Source: Syntrophaceae bacterium | GTDB lineage: Bacteria; Desulfobacterota; SM23-61 | Assembly (NCBI GenBank): GCA_013388675.1 | Contig: JACAEW010000237.1 | Span: forward strand, 1 to 34,788 | Direction of reading: 5' to 3' | Length of the DNA: 34,788 nucleotides | Part shown: one piece after another, positions 1-7,264 of the stretch | Position numbering within the stretch: position 1 is the first letter of the stretch | How the letters are laid out: each line of letters begins with the position of its first letter | Position numbers and translations under genes: made by a program | Notes under the pieces: generated by a model | Databases searched by the model: none | What the model was told of the DNA's origin: nothing | The model's input: the letters and a program-made list of their open reading frames with translations, nothing else

Positions 1-313
1 GGTAGAGGAAAAGCAAAGCGCTTAGTGCCTGGTTCTGCGTCGAGGCACTTACTTTTTCTTTGACCGCCAGATGGGTGAGGTAGGCGTTGATTTCGGGCTC
101 GGCCATCTCCGCGGGATGCCTTTTGTTGTGGAAGAATATAAACAGCTTAACCCAATGGCTGTAGCTCTGCTCGGTCCTTCGGCTGTAATGGCGGGAACGC
201 AGGGCTTCACTTAGGCGATCGAGGAGCTTCGGCTTTTGAGCGGGCGCAGGGGCAATTCGCGGGTATCGACCTAGTGGATTGGAGAGAATGGGTGCGGAGT
301 CAGCCTCTGGCAT
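1..313 (-). CDS. Integron-type tyrosine recombinase, N-terminal part (cut by window edge)
   Basis: An open frame on the minus strand runs to the window edge (about 104 codons). It translates to the N-terminal SAM-like/core-binding domain of an integron integrase. Diagnostic stretches are LLDRLSEALRSRHYSRRTEQ, then SHWVKLFIFFHNKRHPAEM, then YLTHLAV and STQNQALSALLFLY, which match the IntI/XerC-D branch closely. The catalytic R-H-R-Y residues and the IntI-specific extra helix lie outside the window, so activity cannot be judged. Two ATGs exist (319 and 313). The AGGGAGGA ribosome site is properly spaced only from the second, so I use 313. It lies 66 bases downstream of the polymerase gene on the same strand, with a promoter-like sequence between them. 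No attI or attC site is visible. A solitary IntI-like recombinase without cassettes is possible. Confidence 0.85.
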   Translation of the reverse strand, partial: MPEADSAPILSNPLGRYPRIAPAPAQKPKLLDRLSEALRSRHYSRRTEQSYSHWVKLFIFFHNKRHPAEMAEPEINAYLTHLAVKEKVSASTQNQALSALLFLY

Positions 314-345
314 GGGCATTCCTCCCTTCTTGCAACCGATTGAAA

Positions 346-373
346 ATTATCATGTTTCCTCCTCATCTGTCAA
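346..373 (-). promoter_or_regulatory. Candidate sigma-70 promoter for the integrase gene
   Basis: On the minus strand TTGACA (373-368) is followed after 16 bases by GATAAT (351-346). It lies just after the polymerase stop codon and about 30 bases upstream of the integrase start. The spacer contains GATGAG, which resembles half of the palindrome in the lexA promoter, but no full palindrome is present, so LexA control is not supported by sequence alone. Confidence 0.55.
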
Positions 374-379
374 GTTTCT

Positions 380-2557
380 TCAGAATCCTGGATTCTCCAC
401 GATTTCTTCAGCCGCCTTTTCGAGAAGTTCCCGGTATTTCTCTTCATCGTAAATGTCGTCGGCGCTCAGAAAAGGATAAGCGCGGACTCGGTTTTCTTTG
501 TTTTTCGCGGCGGCGTCTTTGATCAGGTAGTGAACCTTCTCTCCGGGGTGGATCTCGATGCCTGCATCGTCCAGCTGCTTGAGGGCCAGGGAGGTGAGGT
601 TGTCCACCTTGTATTCATTCACTTTCTGGCGGACGCTTTTGGCCACGAGCAGGTCTTTGTGCTTCAGGTCTCCGGTCTCCAAACGGGTTAGGTAGCTTGC
701 CAGGACTTCGCGTACTTCTCCGCTTCTCTCCCGGTATTCCTGACTGTTCGCACAGGTACTGAGAAGGCGGAGCATCTCCTCCTGGGCTTCCTTGATCAGG
801 GGGGGGGTATCGTCCCGGCGGAAGGCCAGGCCGCGGGCTTTCAGCTCTCCGTTCTCGAAGGTCCCGAAGTAGCGGGTCGCCACGGGGGTATTTTTCCTAA
901 CCTTGGAGGGCAGGAAGACGACCCATTTGTAGATTCCCTCCAGCTCGATGGGCACGTCGGCCGCCTTCCCGATCTCGGCGCAGAGGTCCAGGACCTCAGA
1001 CCTCGTCATCCCCGGTTTCGTGATCCAGACGGCGTCGGTCAGGGCATGGAGCACCCGGAACCCCCGGGCTTCGCTGAGCTCCTTGGCCTGGAGCAGCTTT
1101 TCCCGCCCGTAGGCCGTCACCGCCTCGTGAGCCTCGATCCGTCCGAAGCGCGCGTTGCGATACCCCAGGTAGCCGAAGCAGACCACCAGGAGCCACTTGA
1201 GGGTTGTCTGTTTTCGGGAATAGATTTCCTTTTCAAATCCTTTGGCCGTCTTCTTCTTCGACCGGAAGTACCTCCGTCGCTCCAGGATGGGCCGCAGGGT
1301 CCGGGGAACCAGTCCTTCCCTCTTCTCGCAGATGTTGTAGCCTGCCTCGGGGACCTTGGGCCGGGGGCAGCAGTCGCACAGGATCGTTTCGGCGGAGATG
1401 TTGTGCCGCACCATGATCGTGGGATACATGGAGGAGTAGTCGATCTCGGCCACGCTGTCGTGCATGCCCATCACCGGCTGGTAGGTGAGCCCGCCCTTGT
1501 CCGCCACCAGGAGGTCCCAGGCGGTCTTGAACCTCTCCGGCTCGCCCTTGCGCCAGGGGACGAGAATCCGGTCCTGGAGGGCGCGGTCGAGCTGCATGGA
1601 GCTGATCGCCGTGCCCGAGCCCCGCCTTGCCAGGCGCTGGATGGGGATCTTGGAGAGCCGGGCCGCTTCGATGATTCCCTCAAAACCGGTGGCCGAGTAG
1701 AAAAACGAATTCTCCCGGTCGATGTGCAGCCGGCCGAAGAAGGGATAGTCCGGGGCATTATAGACGATCTGCCCGTAGGTGAAGTAGGAGCGCCCCTGGG
1801 CCACGATGGCCCGGCGGATGGGCGTTGGCTCCCGGTCGAGGGGCAGAGGGATGCGCCATCTGTCGGAGAGCCGGAGAAGAGAAGGAAGGATGAAGGAGTC
1901 TCCGTGGTCGGTGAGGATGAGGTCGGGATCGTGGCGCTGGAGAAGGCGGCCCAGTTCCCGGAGCAGGTCTTCCGGCGGTCCCGGCTCAAATACGAGCGTC
2001 TTCCCGTCGCAGCGGACCGCGAGGGTGTTCCCTTTGCCCAGGGGCAGGAGGTGGCTTCCCTCCACGGAGATTTCCATGATGGACAAATCCGGAACCGCAT
2101 ACTCCAGGTCCCAGGGGGATTCCAGGGGACGGACGTCCTGCACCTGGTCCCCCTCACATTCCACCCCGCAGCGCCCCAGGGGAAAGATGCCCCGGCTGTA
2201 CAGATAATACTGGGCCAGGGGGATGTCGCAGTTGAAGAAGGAGACCGTCTCTTCCAGCGAGGGGAGCTTGCGCAGCAGGGCGGGGAGCCGGCCGTAGTCG
2301 GAGAGTTCCAGGGCGAGGACTTCGATTTCTTCCCCGCTCCAGAATTCCACCTTCCGGTCCCAGAAGGAGCCGGCGGCAAAGCCTTTCCGCACCGCGCCTT
2401 CGGCCAGCTTCTCCAGAATCCTTCTCTTTCCCGCGGCGTAGATGGGGAAGCGGAAGGGGTCCTCGAAGCGGAGGAGTTTCCCTGCTTCCGTGCGTATCCA
2501 CAGGACCATGCGGTCGTGGAGGGGATAGACGTCCAGGAGCCAGCCGGTGAATTCCAT
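380..2557 (-). CDS. Family-B DNA polymerase, PolB2-like, with degenerate exonuclease
   Basis: This 725-residue protein has the family-B polymerase layout. Motif A is DYSSMYPTIM (D373), motif B is the LKWLLVVCFGYLGYRNARFG segment near 453-472, and motif C is HALTDAVWI near 504-512. The usual DTD of motif C is reduced to one aspartate (D508). The usual KGxxxxRRD element is present as KARGLAFRRDDTP. The 3'-5' exonuclease looks inactive: Exo I reads SVE instead of DIE, and Exo II reads HGDSFILP instead of NGDxFDLP. A cysteine cluster (CDCC and a later C) follows motif A and could bind metal. The pattern resembles archaeal PolB2/Dpo2 and its bacterial relatives, some of which are linked to error-tolerant synthesis. 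I chose the ATG at 2557; an upstream TTG at 2581 is less likely. The gene lies between a small conserved gene and an integrase, downstream of lexA, which suggests a damage-tolerance role. It is not the main replicase or a standard proofreading PolII. Confidence 0.85.
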   Translation of the reverse strand: MEFTGWLLDVYPLHDRMVLWIRTEAGKLLRFEDPFRFPIYAAGKRRILEKLAEGAVRKGFAAGSFWDRKVEFWSGEEIEVLALELSDYGRLPALLRKLPSLEETVSFFNCDIPLAQYYLYSRGIFPLGRCGVECEGDQVQDVRPLESPWDLEYAVPDLSIMEISVEGSHLLPLGKGNTLAVRCDGKTLVFEPGPPEDLLRELGRLLQRHDPDLILTDHGDSFILPSLLRLSDRWRIPLPLDREPTPIRRAIVAQGRSYFTYGQIVYNAPDYPFFGRLHIDRENSFFYSATGFEGIIEAARLSKIPIQRLARRGSGTAISSMQLDRALQDRILVPWRKGEPERFKTAWDLLVADKGGLTYQPVMGMHDSVAEIDYSSMYPTIMVRHNISAETILCDCCPRPKVPEAGYNICEKREGLVPRTLRPILERRRYFRSKKKTAKGFEKEIYSRKQTTLKWLLVVCFGYLGYRNARFGRIEAHEAVTAYGREKLLQAKELSEARGFRVLHALTDAVWITKPGMTRSEVLDLCAEIGKAADVPIELEGIYKWVVFLPSKVRKNTPVATRYFGTFENGELKARGLAFRRDDTPPLIKEAQEEMLRLLSTCANSQEYRERSGEVREVLASYLTRLETGDLKHKDLLVAKSVRQKVNEYKVDNLTSLALKQLDDAGIEIHPGEKVHYLIKDAAAKNKENRVRAYPFLSADDIYDEEKYRELLEKAAEEIVENPGF

Positions 2558-2604
2558 AAAAAAGTGCCTTAATTGCCTCAAGTGCGCTCAAGTGCCTTAA
2601 ATAA

Positions 2605-2813
2605 AAAAAATCGTAATTGTTTAGCCACACGAGAAAAGAGTTCCCAATATGTCAGGAATCCAGAAATCCCCCTTGATCCCCCTTTTTCAAAGGGGGAAAT
2701 TCGCTTTTCTTTCTCTGAATCAATCAAAAAAGCTCTCCTCCCTTTGAGAAAGGGAGGACGGGAGGGATTTATGGGGAAGCCTTTTTAAATAGCTAAACAG
2801 CCGCAAAAAATCG
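2605..2813. mobile_element. 191-bp MITE-like element, copy 1, with 9-bp target duplication
   Basis: The element (2614-2804) is flanked by the direct repeat AAAAAATCG at 2605-2613 and 2805-2813. Its ends carry TGTTTAGC and its inverse GCTAAACA. Inside are two hairpins, CCCCCTTTTTCAAAGGGGG and CTCCCTTTGAGAAAGGGAG. A second copy of the same 191-bp length lies at 21272-21462, with its own different 9-bp flanking repeat. By hand alignment the copies differ at about 24 positions. It encodes no protein and must have been mobilised in trans. Confidence 0.8.
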
Positions 2814-2826
2814 AAAAATTTGGAAT

Positions 2827-3153
2827 TCAGGATTTGGGATTCGTTTCGGATTTCGATATTCGGATTTCGGATTTCATCGCTTCATTTTCGTCCCCGGCAC
2901 TCCCATTCCCTGCTTTCAACTTCTCCTGGAGCTCGGCAATGAGTTTCTCGTGTTCCAGGCAGATGGAAAGGAGGATCGACTCCATCGGCCAGGGATGGGA
3001 GGTGTAGGCCGCGGCCTGGACGTGCAGCTTGGCCCGGTCGAAGAGGCGGTCGAAGGCCTCCTGGTCTTCCTTGCGCAGGGCCCGGCGGAATTTTTTCCAC
3101 TCCTCGTACTCCCGTTCCAAGACCTGGCTGAAGGGTAAAACGGTGCGGCCCAT
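2827..3153 (-). CDS. Small conserved protein of PolB2-type operons (MGRTVLPF family)
   Basis: This 108-residue acidic/basic helical protein begins MGRTVLPFSQ. Its conserved-looking core includes EWKKFRRALRKEDQEAFDRL and a later MESILLSICLEHEKLIAELQ. I recall similar short proteins (MGRTxP...FRRALRxxDQxxFDRLF) in archaea next to family-B polymerases, but I cannot name a function. The start at 3153 has a well-placed GGAGG; a longer frame up to 3231 only reads into repeat sequence. The last residues (about MKSEIRISKSETNPKS) are encoded by a dispersed AT-rich repeat and look like a recent, non-conserved tail. The protein sits between the RecA-like gene and the polymerase, so it may be an adaptor of the polymerase complex; that is inference. 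Confidence 0.75.
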   Translation of the reverse strand: MGRTVLPFSQVLEREYEEWKKFRRALRKEDQEAFDRLFDRAKLHVQAAAYTSHPWPMESILLSICLEHEKLIAELQEKLKAGNGSAGDENEAMKSEIRISKSETNPKS

Positions 3154-3170
3154 GGGACCTCCAAAGACAG

Positions 3171-3250
3171 ATGTCAAATGCGGATTGCGGAATTCGGAAT
3201 GCGGAATAACCCCCACCCTCGCCTCCCCCACAAGGGGGAAGGGTTGCGAG
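3171..3250. repeat. Dispersed repeats: GGAATTCGGAATGCGG unit plus a CCCCCAC/GGGGG hairpin unit
   Basis: Positions 3171-3207 hold the AAATGCGGATTGCGGAATTC-type unit, also seen at 30692-30715 and inverted at 30838-30863. Positions 3211-3250 hold a CTCCCCCACAAGGGGGAAGG hairpin. They lie in the space between the RecA-like gene and the small gene. Confidence 0.6.
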
Positions 3251-3261
3251 GGGCTGATAGC

Positions 3262-3924
3262 TTATGTTAATTTTTTAAACTCTTCAAAAACCCCCCACGG
3301 CCGCCGCAGGGTCAGGGGCGGTTTGTCCAGGATGACCTGCAGGGTGTCGGCGGAGGATTTCAGCTTCAGGACCGCGTCGGAAAAACGGATCAAATCCTTT
3401 AAAAGAAAGCCGCGGCGCTGGTTGAAGCCGGAGAAGGACTGGCTCATGAGGAAGAAAACGCCCTTGCGGCTCATCTCCTCCACTTTGGCCATCGTCCTCC
3501 GGAAGAGAAGCGCAGCCTCCTCCCCGGGCACGTCTTCGTCGAAGAAGACGGTACAGGGGCCCAGAAAGACGACCAAGGCAGGAACCCCGGCAGGGATGAA
3601 CGGTTCCAGGCGCTTGCGGATGAGGGTGGCCAACTGATGGCAGGTGAAGGCCCGGGCCACTGAGATTTTCTTCAAAAGCTCATCCGGCGGAAAACCTTCT
3701 TTCCGGGCAAACTTGGAGACCACGTAGGGGTCGAAGGAGTTGGCCCCGTCGGCCACCAGGACCCGGAACCCCAGCGAGGCCGCAAAGGCGGCAAGGTACA
3801 CCGTTAGGTCCGCCGGCCGCTCCCCCACGATGAGCGCCTTTCGCACCGGCTTGCCGGAGGGAAAGCCGGGAACTTCCAGAAGAGGAAAGAAATCCTCCCC
3901 CGCCTTTTGAATCTCTTTTTCCAT
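3262..3924 (-). CDS. RecA/RadA-superfamily-like protein with lost P-loop
   Basis: The 220-residue protein carries a Rad51/RadA-like core. The segment SFDPYVVSKFARKEGFPP (about 63-80), followed by ISVARAFTCHQL (about 87-98), matches the RadA pattern TFDPxRV...VARAFTxxQ. A Walker B-like strand, ALVVFLGP, lies near 116-123, and FFLMSQSF near 157-164 matches the strand that ends in TNQ in RadA. The expected Walker A GxxxxGK[ST] is replaced by IVGERPADLT (32-41), with no lysine, and the Walker B aspartate is missing. ATP hydrolysis is therefore unlikely. ImuA and SulA-like proteins of SOS mutagenesis cassettes are also RecA-like, so an accessory role for the neighbouring polymerase is plausible. 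It lies between lexA and the small gene on the same strand. Confidence 0.75.
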   Translation of the reverse strand: MEKEIQKAGEDFFPLLEVPGFPSGKPVRKALIVGERPADLTVYLAAFAASLGFRVLVADGANSFDPYVVSKFARKEGFPPDELLKKISVARAFTCHQLATLIRKRLEPFIPAGVPALVVFLGPCTVFFDEDVPGEEAALLFRRTMAKVEEMSRKGVFFLMSQSFSGFNQRRGFLLKDLIRFSDAVLKLKSSADTLQVILDKPPLTLRRPWGVFEEFKKLT

Positions 3925-3998
3925 GACTGAAAAGGACCCGCAGAGCCAGCGGAGAACGCAGAAAATATCAAAAATCCAAAAACGTCAAGAGCCAGCCT

Positions 3999-4021
3999 GG
4001 GGCGATCCACCGGGTCGCCCC
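3999..4021. repeat. Palindromic repeat (GGGGCGA...TCGCCCC)
   Basis: A 7-bp inverted repeat with a 9-base loop lies in the 131-base gap between lexA and the RecA-like gene. It belongs to the GTAGGGGC family found several times in the window. On the minus strand it is not followed by a T tract, so it is probably not an intrinsic terminator and the genes may be co-transcribed. Confidence 0.55.
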
Positions 4022-4055
4022 TACAATTTTTTCATCTTTTGTAAAAAGGAGCCGT

Positions 4056-4658
4056 TCACAGTTTCCGGTACGCCACTCCGACCACCTTGCCTAAGATGCG
4101 GAGATTTTTGCTTCCCCTTTTTACCCGAATGGGGGGCATGGCCGGGTTGTCCGAACGTAGCACGACGGATTCTCTCTCCTTGAAAACCCTCTTCACCGTA
4201 ACTTCCCCTTCGATCATGGCCAGGACGATGGTGCCGTCGTCGGCGGAATCGGCCTGTTTCACCAGGAGGTAATCCTGGGGCAGGATGGTCGGGGTCATGC
4301 TCATCCCTTCCCGGTCCACCCGCACCATGAAGAGGCCCGACCCCTTGGCCCACTCTTCCGGGACGGGGACCGCTCCCTCAATATTTTCAATGGCTTCCAG
4401 GGGAGGCCCGGCGGCAACCTTCCCGACCACCGGGACCTGCCGCACCGAGGAAAAGGGGCGGAAAACCTGGATCCCCCGGGACTTGGAGGAGCGGGTCAGA
4501 CTTCCTTTTTTTTCCAGGGCCCGCAGGTGGTCGATGGCCGCCCGGTAATCGATCCGGAAATGCCCGGCGATCTCCCGCACCGTGGGCGGATAACCCTCTT
4601 TTGCCCTAAAGGCCTGGATAAAATTAAGGATTTCTCTTTGCCTCGGGGTGAGAACCAT
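4056..4658 (-). CDS. lexA: LexA repressor
   Basis: This 200-residue protein has the full LexA layout. The N-terminal winged helix begins MVLTPRQREILNFIQAF and has the recognition-helix region DYRAAIDHLRALEKKG. Autocleavage would occur at A83-G84 within VGKVAAGPP. The catalytic dyad is S120 (in REGMSMTP) and K156 (in GEVTVKRVF). LexA represses damage-response genes until activated RecA stimulates its self-cleavage. The DNA-contact helix differs from that of E. coli, so a non-E. coli operator is expected. The start ATG follows AAGGAGGTC. The gene heads a minus-strand series that continues into the RecA-like, small, polymerase and integrase genes. Its promoter with a palindrome is at 4877-4905, leaving a leader of about 215 bases. 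Confidence 0.96.
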   Translation of the reverse strand: MVLTPRQREILNFIQAFRAKEGYPPTVREIAGHFRIDYRAAIDHLRALEKKGSLTRSSKSRGIQVFRPFSSVRQVPVVGKVAAGPPLEAIENIEGAVPVPEEWAKGSGLFMVRVDREGMSMTPTILPQDYLLVKQADSADDGTIVLAMIEGEVTVKRVFKERESVVLRSDNPAMPPIRVKRGSKNLRILGKVVGVAYRKL

Positions 4659-4671
4659 CTATGACCTCCTT

Positions 4672-4722
4672 AAATCCCCCCTGCGCCCCCCTTTTTCAAA
4701 GGGGGGAAGAACGGGGGGATTT
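4672..4722. repeat. AAATCCCCCC...GGGGGGATTT nested palindrome in the lexA leader
   Basis: The outer arms AAATCCCCCC (4672-4681) and GGGGGGATTT (4713-4722) enclose a second hairpin, CCCCCCTTTTTCAAAGGGGGG less its last base (4686-4706). It resembles the core of the 191-bp element but lacks its ends. In the lexA transcript it would fold just upstream of the ribosome site. Confidence 0.65.
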
Positions 4723-4876
4723 CTGAAAACGTTTTGCTCTCAGGGTAAACGTAGCGAAATATGGGAGTTTTTCAAAAAACTAAAGTGCTACGAAATCCGA
4801 AACAAATTCAAACATTTTGAATCTTGAGCATTGGAATTTATTGGGAATCTGGATTCTGGAATTTGAACTTTATTTC

Positions 4877-4905
4877 AATATACTCATCATTTGATGAGTT
4901 GTCAA
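4877..4905 (-). promoter_or_regulatory. Sigma-70 promoter of lexA
   Basis: On the minus strand a perfect TTGACA (4905-4900) is followed after exactly 17 bases by TATATT (4882-4877). It is the strongest promoter match in the lexA upstream region and points toward lexA. Confidence 0.8.
4882..4899. promoter_or_regulatory. Candidate LexA operator (perfect 8-2-8 palindrome)
   Basis: The sequence ACTCATCATTTGATGAGT is a perfect inverted repeat with a 2-base centre. It fills the spacer between the -35 and -10 boxes of the lexA promoter, the expected place for an autoregulatory operator. It is not the E. coli CTG-N10-CAG nor the Gram-positive GAAC-N4-GTTC box. Assignment to LexA is inference from position and symmetry. 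Confidence 0.65.
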
Positions 4906-4917
4906 GAGAATTTTTAA

Positions 4918-4993
4918 GGCGCCCGGCCGGGCGCCCCTACCTGTCACCAAAACCATAGGACGGCCATCATGCCTTGGGCGTGACCGCCCCTAC
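4918..4993. repeat. GC-rich palindromes of the GTAGGGGC family
   Basis: A perfect 18-bp palindrome, GGCGCCCGGCCGGGCGCC (4918-4935), is followed by CCTAC and, at about 4976-4993, by a second GGGCG...CGCCCCTAC unit. They lie between the divergent lexA and rubrerythrin genes. The remainder of 4659-5085 is otherwise AT-rich non-coding sequence with degenerate GGAATTTG-type repeats. Confidence 0.6.
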
Positions 4994-5085
4994 GGAATCG
5001 AAAAAGGAACATGCGGAAAATCATAGGGTGGGTTAAAATGACCAGGATAGAATTTTACGAACCATCAAAACAAGGAGGAAGAAGC

Positions 5086-5658
5086 ATGGAATTCAAGGGA
5101 AGCAAGACGGAGAAGAATTTGCTGGCCGCTTTTGCCGGCGAATCGCAGGCCCGCAATCGATATACTTTCTTCGCCAGCGAGGCCAAGAAGGCGGGGTATG
5201 AACAGATCGCCGCCATCTTCCTGGACACGGCGGACAATGAAAAGGAACACGCCAAGATGTTCTTCAAGCTCCTCAAGGGCGGAGAAGCAACCATCACCGC
5301 CGGGTATCCTGCGGGGGTGATCGGAGACCTGGCCGCCAATCTGAAGGCCGCCGCGGACGGGGAAAATTTTGAATGGACGACCCTTTACAACAATTTTGCG
5401 GAGACGGCCAAACAGGAAGGGTTCATGGACGCCTGCCAGACCTTCACCCAGATTTCCAAGGCGGAGAAGTACCATGAGGCCCGGTACCGGGCGCTGCTGA
5501 AGAACGTGCAGGAAGGAAAAGTCTTCAAGAAGGACGCATCGACAAAATGGCACTGCCGGAACTGCGGCTACGTGCACGAAGGGAAGGAAGCCCTGGACAA
5601 ATGCCCGGTGTGCGCCCATCCGCGGGCGTTCTTTGAGGTGCTGGCGGAGAACTATTAA
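5086..5658 (+). CDS. Rubrerythrin
   Basis: This 190-residue protein is a peroxide-reducing di-iron protein of anaerobes and microaerophiles. The four-helix domain carries the expected iron ligands at E19, E52, H55, E93, E96, E127 and H130. The C-terminal rubredoxin domain has C157-x2-C160 and C173-x2-C176. Electrons normally pass from a rubredoxin or NAD(P)H-dependent reductase to the di-iron site, where H2O2 is reduced to water. The start at 5086 follows AAGGAGGAAGAAGC; an in-frame extension to 5011 is unsupported. It is divergent from lexA and flanked by palindromic repeats, so it is probably a single-gene unit. Its presence points to an anaerobic or oxygen-sensitive lifestyle. Confidence 0.95.
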   Translation: MEFKGSKTEKNLLAAFAGESQARNRYTFFASEAKKAGYEQIAAIFLDTADNEKEHAKMFFKLLKGGEATITAGYPAGVIGDLAANLKAAADGENFEWTTLYNNFAETAKQEGFMDACQTFTQISKAEKYHEARYRALLKNVQEGKVFKKDASTKWHCRNCGYVHEGKEALDKCPVCAHPRAFFEVLAENY

Positions 5659-5696
5659 ACGCGGTCCGATCCCGGAGTACAGCCACCGGCAAAATT

Positions 5697-5726
5697 CGTA
5701 GGGGCAATTCATGAATTGCCCCTACG
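5697..5726. repeat. Perfect 30-bp palindrome between convergent genes
   Basis: The arms begin CGTAGGGGCAATTCA and are exactly mirrored with no loop. It lies between the rubrerythrin stop (5658) and the ybeY stop (5756), where it may serve as a bidirectional transcription barrier, although no T tract is present. Related GTAGGGGC units occur near 4021, 4930, 4990 and 13727. Confidence 0.75.
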
Positions 5727-5755
5727 GGGTCCATTTCGGACATTTCTCCAATGCC

Positions 5756-6220
5756 CTAGGGTCTTCTCGGGGAGGAAGAGCCTTTTAGCAAACCCCACAG
5801 CTCCCCTTCTTTGGCCTCCATCTTTGCCCGGTCCTCATCGCTTTTCTCATGATCATAACCCGCAAGATGAAGCATTCCGTGGATCAGGAGGAAGAGGACC
5901 TCATCTTCGGCTTTCTTCCCGACCTCTGCGGCGTCCCGTCTCGCCGTCTCGACGGAGAGGACCACGTCCCCCAGTATCCTAGCCCGGATCGATGGGGGGA
6001 TTCCGTCCAACATGGGAAAAGAAATAACATTGGTCGGGCGGTTACGGCGGAAATACTGGCGGTTCAGCCGGGCGATCTCCGAGTCATCCACCAGCACCAC
6101 GGTGAGCTCATACCCTTCATACCCAAGGGCCTTCAGGATTCTGCGGGCCGCCGCCCCGATCTTTCGTCGGTCCACGGGCACCCGGTCTTGGCGGTTGAGG
6201 ACGGAGATTTTCGAGGACAA
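5756..6220 (-). CDS. ybeY: Endoribonuclease YbeY (16S rRNA maturation)
   Basis: The 154-residue protein has the zinc signature HGMLHLAGYDH with H114, H118 and H124, preceded by the conserved region PTNVISFPM near 62-70. YbeY is a metal-dependent RNase involved in 16S rRNA 3'-end maturation and ribosome quality control. The start lies 6 bases after the phoH stop, so the two genes are translated from one message. The HD-domain gene often found between phoH and ybeY is absent here. The length is typical of the family. Confidence 0.95.
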   Translation of the reverse strand: MSSKISVLNRQDRVPVDRRKIGAAARRILKALGYEGYELTVVLVDDSEIARLNRQYFRRNRPTNVISFPMLDGIPPSIRARILGDVVLSVETARRDAAEVGKKAEDEVLFLLIHGMLHLAGYDHEKSDEDRAKMEAKEGELWGLLKGSSSPRRP

Positions 6221-6226
6221 AGGCGG

Positions 6227-7264
6227 TTAATCTCCCCCCTCTTCTTTGCCCTCACCTCCATACAGAGGAAGAGAAAAAGCGGCGGCATTCTTTTTGGCCG
6301 CCTGGCTCTCGTAGGCGCGAATGATGTCCTGAACGAGAGGATGGCGGACCACGTCGATCTCGGTGAAGAAACTGAAGTGGATCCCTTCGATACCCTGGAG
6401 GATATTGCGGGCCTCGATCAGCCCGGACATCTTTCCGGTGGGCAGATCGATCTGCGTGACATCCCCGGTAATCACCGCCTTGGAGCCGTAACCCAGGCGG
6501 GTCAGAAACATCTTCATCTGTTCGGACGTGGTATTCTGCGCTTCATCCAGGATCACAAAGGAGTCATTCAGCGTCCGGCCCCGCATGAAAGCCAGGGGAG
6601 CCACTTCGATCACCCCTTTTTCCAGCATGCGCGACGCGGTCTCAAAATCCATCATGTCATGGAGCGCATCGTAGAGGGGGCGCAGGTACGGGTTGACCTT
6701 TTCCAGAAGGTCCCCGGGAAGGAATCCCAGCTTTTCCCCCGCCTCCACCGCAGGACGGGTCAGGATGATCCGGTCCACTTCCTTCTTGGTCAGCGAAGCG
6801 ACGCCCATGGCCATGGCCAGGTAAGTTTTTCCGGTCCCGGCCGGTCCGATGCTGAAAACAATGTCATGGGCCCGGATGGCATCGATGTAGCGCTTCTGGG
6901 CCAGGCTCTTGGGAGTGATAAAGCGGCGCCGGGCGGAAATAAAGACGGTGTCCAGGAAAATATCTTTCAGTTTGGCCGAATGATTGCCGGAGAGAATCCG
7001 GACCGCGGAAACGACGTCGTTGGGATAAAGAGGGTGGCCGCGACGCAGGATATCGTAGAGTTCGGTGAGGACTTTTTCCGCCAGGCCAACGTTGATCGGA
7101 TCGCCCGAGAGGGCGATCGTGTTCCCCCGGGCATGAATCCTGACCCCCAGGCTCTTTTCGATGAGTTTCAGATGGGCGTCGTTCTCTCCGAAGAGAAGCT
7201 TGACCGTGGCCGGGTCCTCAAAATTTACCCGGCGGGGTGGAGATTCTTCGGATTTTTCTTTCAA
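6227..7264 (-). CDS. PhoH-like ATPase (YbeZ type)
   Basis: The 345-residue protein has a KH-like N-terminal part and a P-loop domain with Walker A GPAGTGKT (140-147) and Walker B FVILDEAQ (236-243). PhoH/YbeZ proteins are RNA-associated ATPases often paired with YbeY; here ybeY follows immediately. The C-terminal tail (after about residue 325) is low in conservation and glycine/glutamate-rich. A promoter and a leader hairpin lie upstream on the minus strand (7406-7434 and 7334-7356). Confidence 0.93.

Follow-up and report, generated by a model that had tools for sequence, protein, structure and literature searches.

The four-gene operon lexA-iRadA-PPB2-PolB2 has already been reported in Leptospirillum (Makarova 2014, PMC4104785), where the operon of L. 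ferriphilum is LFML04_0990-0993 (PMC4104785, PMC11791011). The iRadA-PPB2-PolB2 complex has also been modelled, lexA has been found to be enriched in the neighbourhood of the bacterial operons, and a single archaea-to-bacteria transfer has been reported (Timinskas 2025, PMC11791011). Archaeal Dpo2, an extender polymerase of translesion synthesis, is induced by damage and is required for targeted mutagenesis (PMC7390963, PMC8764526). Related arrangements are built on other polymerases: in the Pseudomonas putida lexA2-imuA-imuB-dnaE2 cassette, a second or dedicated LexA leads and controls a translesion-synthesis operon of its own that also encodes a RecA-like partner (PMC3901139), and in UmuD'2C-RecA (Pol V), which is under SOS control, the polymerase is joined by a recombinase and a small accessory subunit, a parallel to the PolB2 systems that has been drawn before (PMC11791011). 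In addition, SOS-controlled integron integrases are known (PMC3108266).

Here we analysed a stretch of 34,788 nucleotides (the window) that starts at base 1 of contig C39 in a Syntrophaceae draft genome of 5.0 Mb and 353 contigs (G000). Its first 4.9 kb contain five minus-strand genes encoding LexA, a RadA-like protein, a small protein beginning MGRTVLPF, a family-B polymerase and an integrase (Table 1), and this co-directional layout is as given in a preliminary description of the DNA. The first four genes match the L. ferriphilum operon in number and order, and both loci have the MGRT arm, an inactivated RadA, a substituted DxD motif and lexA at the head, whereas the window adds a visible operator and LexA co-variation and, in its family, an unrelated integrase follows. 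The P. putida cassette resembles the window in its dedicated LexA and RecA-like partner but differs in its polymerase, which is DnaE2 and not family B, in having ImuB, and in that the RecA-like gene of the window is RadA-derived; ImuB and DnaE2 are absent from the window operon, as is any Y-family or C-family gene. Pol V differs in using a Y-family polymerase, the host RecA and cleaved UmuD as the accessory protein. SOS-controlled chromosomal integrons (PMC3108266) likewise place a TIGR02249-type integrase beside a LexA-controlled gene, but in the window the integrase promoter lacks a LexA operator, the gene is incomplete and neither attI nor attC is present.

Judged from its sequence, the locus is very probably a bacterial PolB2 mutasome operon with a private SOS switch, serving error-prone lesion bypass. 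The preliminary description had proposed a LexA-headed mutagenesis cassette on a family-B polymerase, with a trio of RecA-like protein, small protein and PolB2 of archaeal type. Both proposals are supported by the recurrence of the trio with lexA across relatives, and both were already in print (PMC4104785, PMC11791011). Searches of the open-access literature gave no paper describing the operator, the arrangement with two LexA proteins or the link to the integrase. Resolution of the LexA switch to single bases, and regulons that appear to have one site each, would be additions to the known operon type.

Table 1. Features of the lexA-PolB2 locus, in positions of the window.
Feature	Position	Strand	Basis or remark
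Probable LexA operator ACTCATCAAATGATGAGT	4882..4899	-	perfect 18-bp palindrome filling the lexA promoter spacer
lexA promoter TTGACA-17-TATATT	4877..4905	-	promoter kept at lexA of PolB2 operons in relatives
lexA, PolB2-linked	4056..4658	-	TIGR00498, PF00717, PF01726
iRadA, RadA/Rad51 homologue without Walker A motif	3262..3924	-	profile and predicted fold
PPB2, small helical protein with MGRT N-terminal arm	2827..3153	-	relatives and profile
Repeat-derived hairpin and T run in PPB2/PolB2 gap, possible attenuator	2736..2758	-	10-bp hairpin
PolB2 family-B DNA polymerase	380..2557	-	PF00136, 2.8e-32; L506-T507-D508
Integrase promoter-like site TTGACA-16-GATAAT, without LexA operator	346..373	-	sequence pattern
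Integron-type tyrosine recombinase, N-terminal 106 aa, cut by contig end	2..319	-	TIGR02249, 2.7e-27

Conservation was assessed in the 18 genomes having PolB2 and enough upstream sequence. lexA lies next to PolB2 in 17 (G000, G001-G003, G005-G008, G013, G015, G016, G023, G025, G042, G060, G078 and G094; not G062), and the full order lexA-iRadA-PPB2-PolB2 is present in 16, so that the recurrence of the trio and its adjacency to lexA, which the preliminary description had put forward as a check, are both found. Among the 99 relatives sampled, 20 gave PolB2-like matches, and the weakest of these matches may be other family-B polymerases. The order iRadA-PPB2-PolB2 seen in the window is the only one reported in bacteria (PMC11791011). 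In G078 (L123, about 4347-7156), lexA directly adjoins PolB2, and profiles detected neither iRadA nor PPB2. Leptospira phages (LE1-type, KF114879; L171, 4180-7445) also have the genes ordered iRadA-PPB2-PolB2, with a PolB2 that is 37% identical over 99% of length; the annotation there gives hypothetical proteins and a DNA polymerase family B; in viral contigs, no PolB2 was confirmed.

The intergenic gaps within the four-gene set of the window are long (131, 108 and 269 bp), and the hairpin at 2758-2736 could reduce read-through from PPB2 into PolB2 in this genome; the count of terminator-like hairpin sites across the region is not above that in shuffled sequences. Given the long gaps and the terminator-like hairpin before PolB2, co-transcription of lexA-iRadA-PPB2-PolB2 is therefore not certain. 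A rubrerythrin gene (5011-5658) is divergent from lexA, and rubrerythrin is also found beside lexA in G014 (L165).

The LexA of the window matches TIGR00498 at 171 bits (cut-off 111 bits) and keeps the features of self-cleavage, namely the Ala83-Gly84 site, Ser120 and Lys156. The gene does have its own promoter, as first described, and the spacer of that promoter holds the perfect palindrome. In five window-family genomes the promoter-operator block is identical (identity 1.0 inside, about 0.34 in the 60-odd flanking bases on each side), and the corresponding block of the sister families, TTGACA-ACTAAACAAATGTATAGTAT, compared across nine genomes, has an identity of 0.96 inside versus 0.30 outside. 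The operators of the window and sister families differ in both half-sites at matching positions, and helix 3 of LexA reads GHF(G/R)IDYRAAxDHL in the former versus EHFxIYPRAxFDHL in the latter. One further family has CCATACAAATGTATGG at the lexA promoter spacer and the helix KINLGTVQDHL, and another has ACTATTCTTCTGTATAGT and GIQPRAAADHL. Operator and helix 3 vary together among these four groups, with the operator always within the promoter spacer. Such co-variation would be expected if the linked LexA directly regulated its own promoter, and the 18-bp palindrome is the probable LexA operator of the PolB2-linked lexA.

A whole-genome motif search of G000 found the operator once at up to two mismatches, at lexA, and none elsewhere, the integrase promoter included. 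Seven sister-family genomes likewise have the PolB2 operator once each, at lexA (two mismatches or fewer). A scan of G000 for E. coli-type LexA boxes gave fewer matches than its reversed control. Several candidate sites were set aside: two-mismatch matches in contigs C108, C167 and C290 were judged to be chance because they misfit the fuller operator pattern, a second perfect operator in G013 (C309) lies on a near-identical contig end and is the same locus, and a second operator in G014 (C191) belongs to the lexA of a split operon.

In six sister genomes (G001, G003-G006 and G008; L028-L033), there is a further lexA, first gene of a lexA-dinB pair, whose product has another helix 3; the operator of this second LexA, GTCTACANNTGTAGAC, was found in five of the six, once each, upstream of that lexA. 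Sequence comparison thus points to two LexA-headed translesion operons side by side in these genomes, with the PolB2-linked and dinB-linked operators each found only at their own lexA. In a LexA tree, the PolB2-linked LexA proteins of the window and sister families are separated, at moderate support (92/95), from those linked to dinB; those of G042 and G078 fall outside the main PolB2-linked group. It is conceivable, at somewhat less than even chances, that the SOS network has been split into private switches, LexA-DinB and LexA-PolB2, each LexA controlling only its own translesion-polymerase operon, and that only the PolB2 switch is left in the window family, where the LexA regulon would consist of the archaeal-type mutasome and, in one relative, an IS91-type transposon.

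Rather unlikely, in our assessment, is that the PolB2-linked LexA is a general SOS repressor with many targets, the PolB2 operon among them. No other LexA was detected in G000 (a draft genome, in which a second lexA may have been missed), a broader SOS response would be expected in a cell of this kind, and weaker sites could have escaped operator searches that allowed at most two to three mismatches. The single operator of G000 argues against such a repressor, as do the recA promoters examined, in which none of the three tested operator types occurs. Moreover, the homologous LexA of the sister families coexists with a second LexA, and the operator of the homologous LexA was likewise found only once.

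Beyond the polymerase operons, an IS91-type transposase gene in G015 (PF04986, PF14319; ORF 2-1321, minus strand) shows the TTGACA-operator-TATA layout with one mismatch (L170, 1361-1378), and two truncated copies of the start region of that transposase are present in G015 and G014 (L168 and L169, near 1501). The transposon in G015 may, to judge from this layout, be under the control of the PolB2-linked LexA. A 2026 study showed that LexA controls the related ISCR elements (PMC13393415).

The private switch would govern three proteins whose identities could be assigned. A single-sequence search with the RadA-like protein gave weak matches only (RadA, 5.6e-4), and a profile of 14 homologues matched RadA structures with an E-value of 1e-8. 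Its AlphaFold model (mean pLDDT 79, about 90 in the core) matched DMC1/Rad51/RadA folds with an E-value of about 2e-10 in structure comparison, and the Walker A motif is absent from every homologue examined. The "RecA-like" protein is, by profile and predicted fold, an inactivated RadA/Rad51 homologue (iRadA) with a degraded ATP-binding site. The MGRTVLPF gene is shorter than the listed GTG open reading frame, and its N-terminus is kept in all complete relatives. A PPB2 profile finds the gene before PolB2 both on a plasmid of the haloarchaeon Haladaptatus (3e-14) and in the Leptospira phage (9e-20), and the small MGRT protein is identified by these matches as PPB2. The best NCBIfam match of the polymerase is type B polymerase PRK05761.1-2, with a score under the cut-off; its closest PDB sequences are archaeal PolB, and its nearest named relatives come from Syntrophaceae and other deltaproteobacterial draft genomes. 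No canonical beta-clamp motif was evident by eye in PolB2 or iRadA. By homology, the trio is the iRadA-PPB2-PolB2 mutasome operon. In sister families, the fingers region of PolB2 has a variable insert resembling translated interspersed repeats (for example, PSPLVGEGE) at alignment columns of about 430-490 (L001-L008), which is absent from the window PolB2.

The PolB2 family was first proposed to be catalytically dead, with a structural or regulatory role only (Rogozin 2008, cited in PMC4104785). The window protein has features that would fit, since LTD replaces DTD in the aligned DxD motif, the first aspartate having become Leu506, and the exonuclease is reported to be inactivated in all PolB2 (PMC12926913). 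We nevertheless find a dead enzyme improbable: Sulfolobus islandicus Dpo2 works as an extender polymerase despite a similar DxD substitution (PMC8764526), and Asp373 of motif A and the remaining Asp508 of motif C are invariant in the alignment.

We favour a mutasome under a private SOS switch because of the conserved order of the trio and lexA, the conservation of the operator, its co-variation with helix 3, the Ala-Gly site and Ser/Lys residues kept in LexA, the hallmarks of PolB2 and iRadA, and the literature on Dpo2 and on the modelled three-protein complex. In undamaged cells, LexA would occupy the palindrome that separates the -35 and -10 elements and block RNA polymerase. Upon damage, activated RecA would trigger self-cleavage of LexA, as expected from the literature on this family, and the promoter would open. 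iRadA, PPB2 and PolB2 would then be made and may come together as an error-prone complex able to extend primers beyond lesions, until fresh LexA turns the operon off again. The downstream integrase would stand apart as a gene with a promoter of its own that has been inherited next to the operon in the window family.

Until now, lexA and bacterial PolB2 operons were linked by gene-neighbourhood enrichment; the present sequences show the switch base by base. Because operator and reading helix of LexA change in step from family to family, damage control of the bacterial PolB2 mutasome becomes directly testable in vitro. If the single-site regulons are true, these would be lineages in which the LexA response shrank to mutagenesis alone.

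The integrase starts 61 bp after PolB2, and in the window 106 codons are left before the contig ends. Related integrase genes follow PolB2 within 1.6 kb, in the same orientation, in G013, G014, G015 and G016; all four are internally deleted remnants from which the catalytic middle is gone. That the five genes form one SOS-controlled unit coupling mutagenesis to integron recombination is highly implausible, for although the genes are co-directional, an integrase or remnant follows PolB2 in all five family genomes having that stretch, and such integrases can be under SOS control elsewhere (PMC3108266), the integrase has a promoter-like site of its own without an operator, its copies have decayed, similar remnants are dispersed elsewhere, and no integrase adjoins PolB2 in the relatives' loci examined outside the window family. 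Of the five-gene locus in the preliminary description, strand and position hold, but co-directional genes need not be one transcription unit, given the integrase's own promoter-like site; adjacency to intI, which it had named as a check, is consistent within the family and fails outside it, and we rejected the integrase as an operon member. The adjacency to the PolB2 operon is real and was most simply inherited within the family, but it does not show functional coupling.

Deleted integron-integrase genes, with about 45 N-terminal and 50 C-terminal residues and the promoter kept, are dispersed in the relatives (L111-L114; L139, L147). The only attC-like hairpin follows the integrase remnant in G014 (L112; folding z -6.4); its R box, GGCTAAC, departs from the attC consensus used in a pattern search that matched nothing, and folding supports the site. 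In G015, PolB2 and the integrase remnant are separated by a gene (L113, 8606-9937) for a DNA methylase that has a nuclease-like tail (PF01555, PF00565), and in G016 (L114) the 3' end of a DNA methylase gene is cut off by the remnant.
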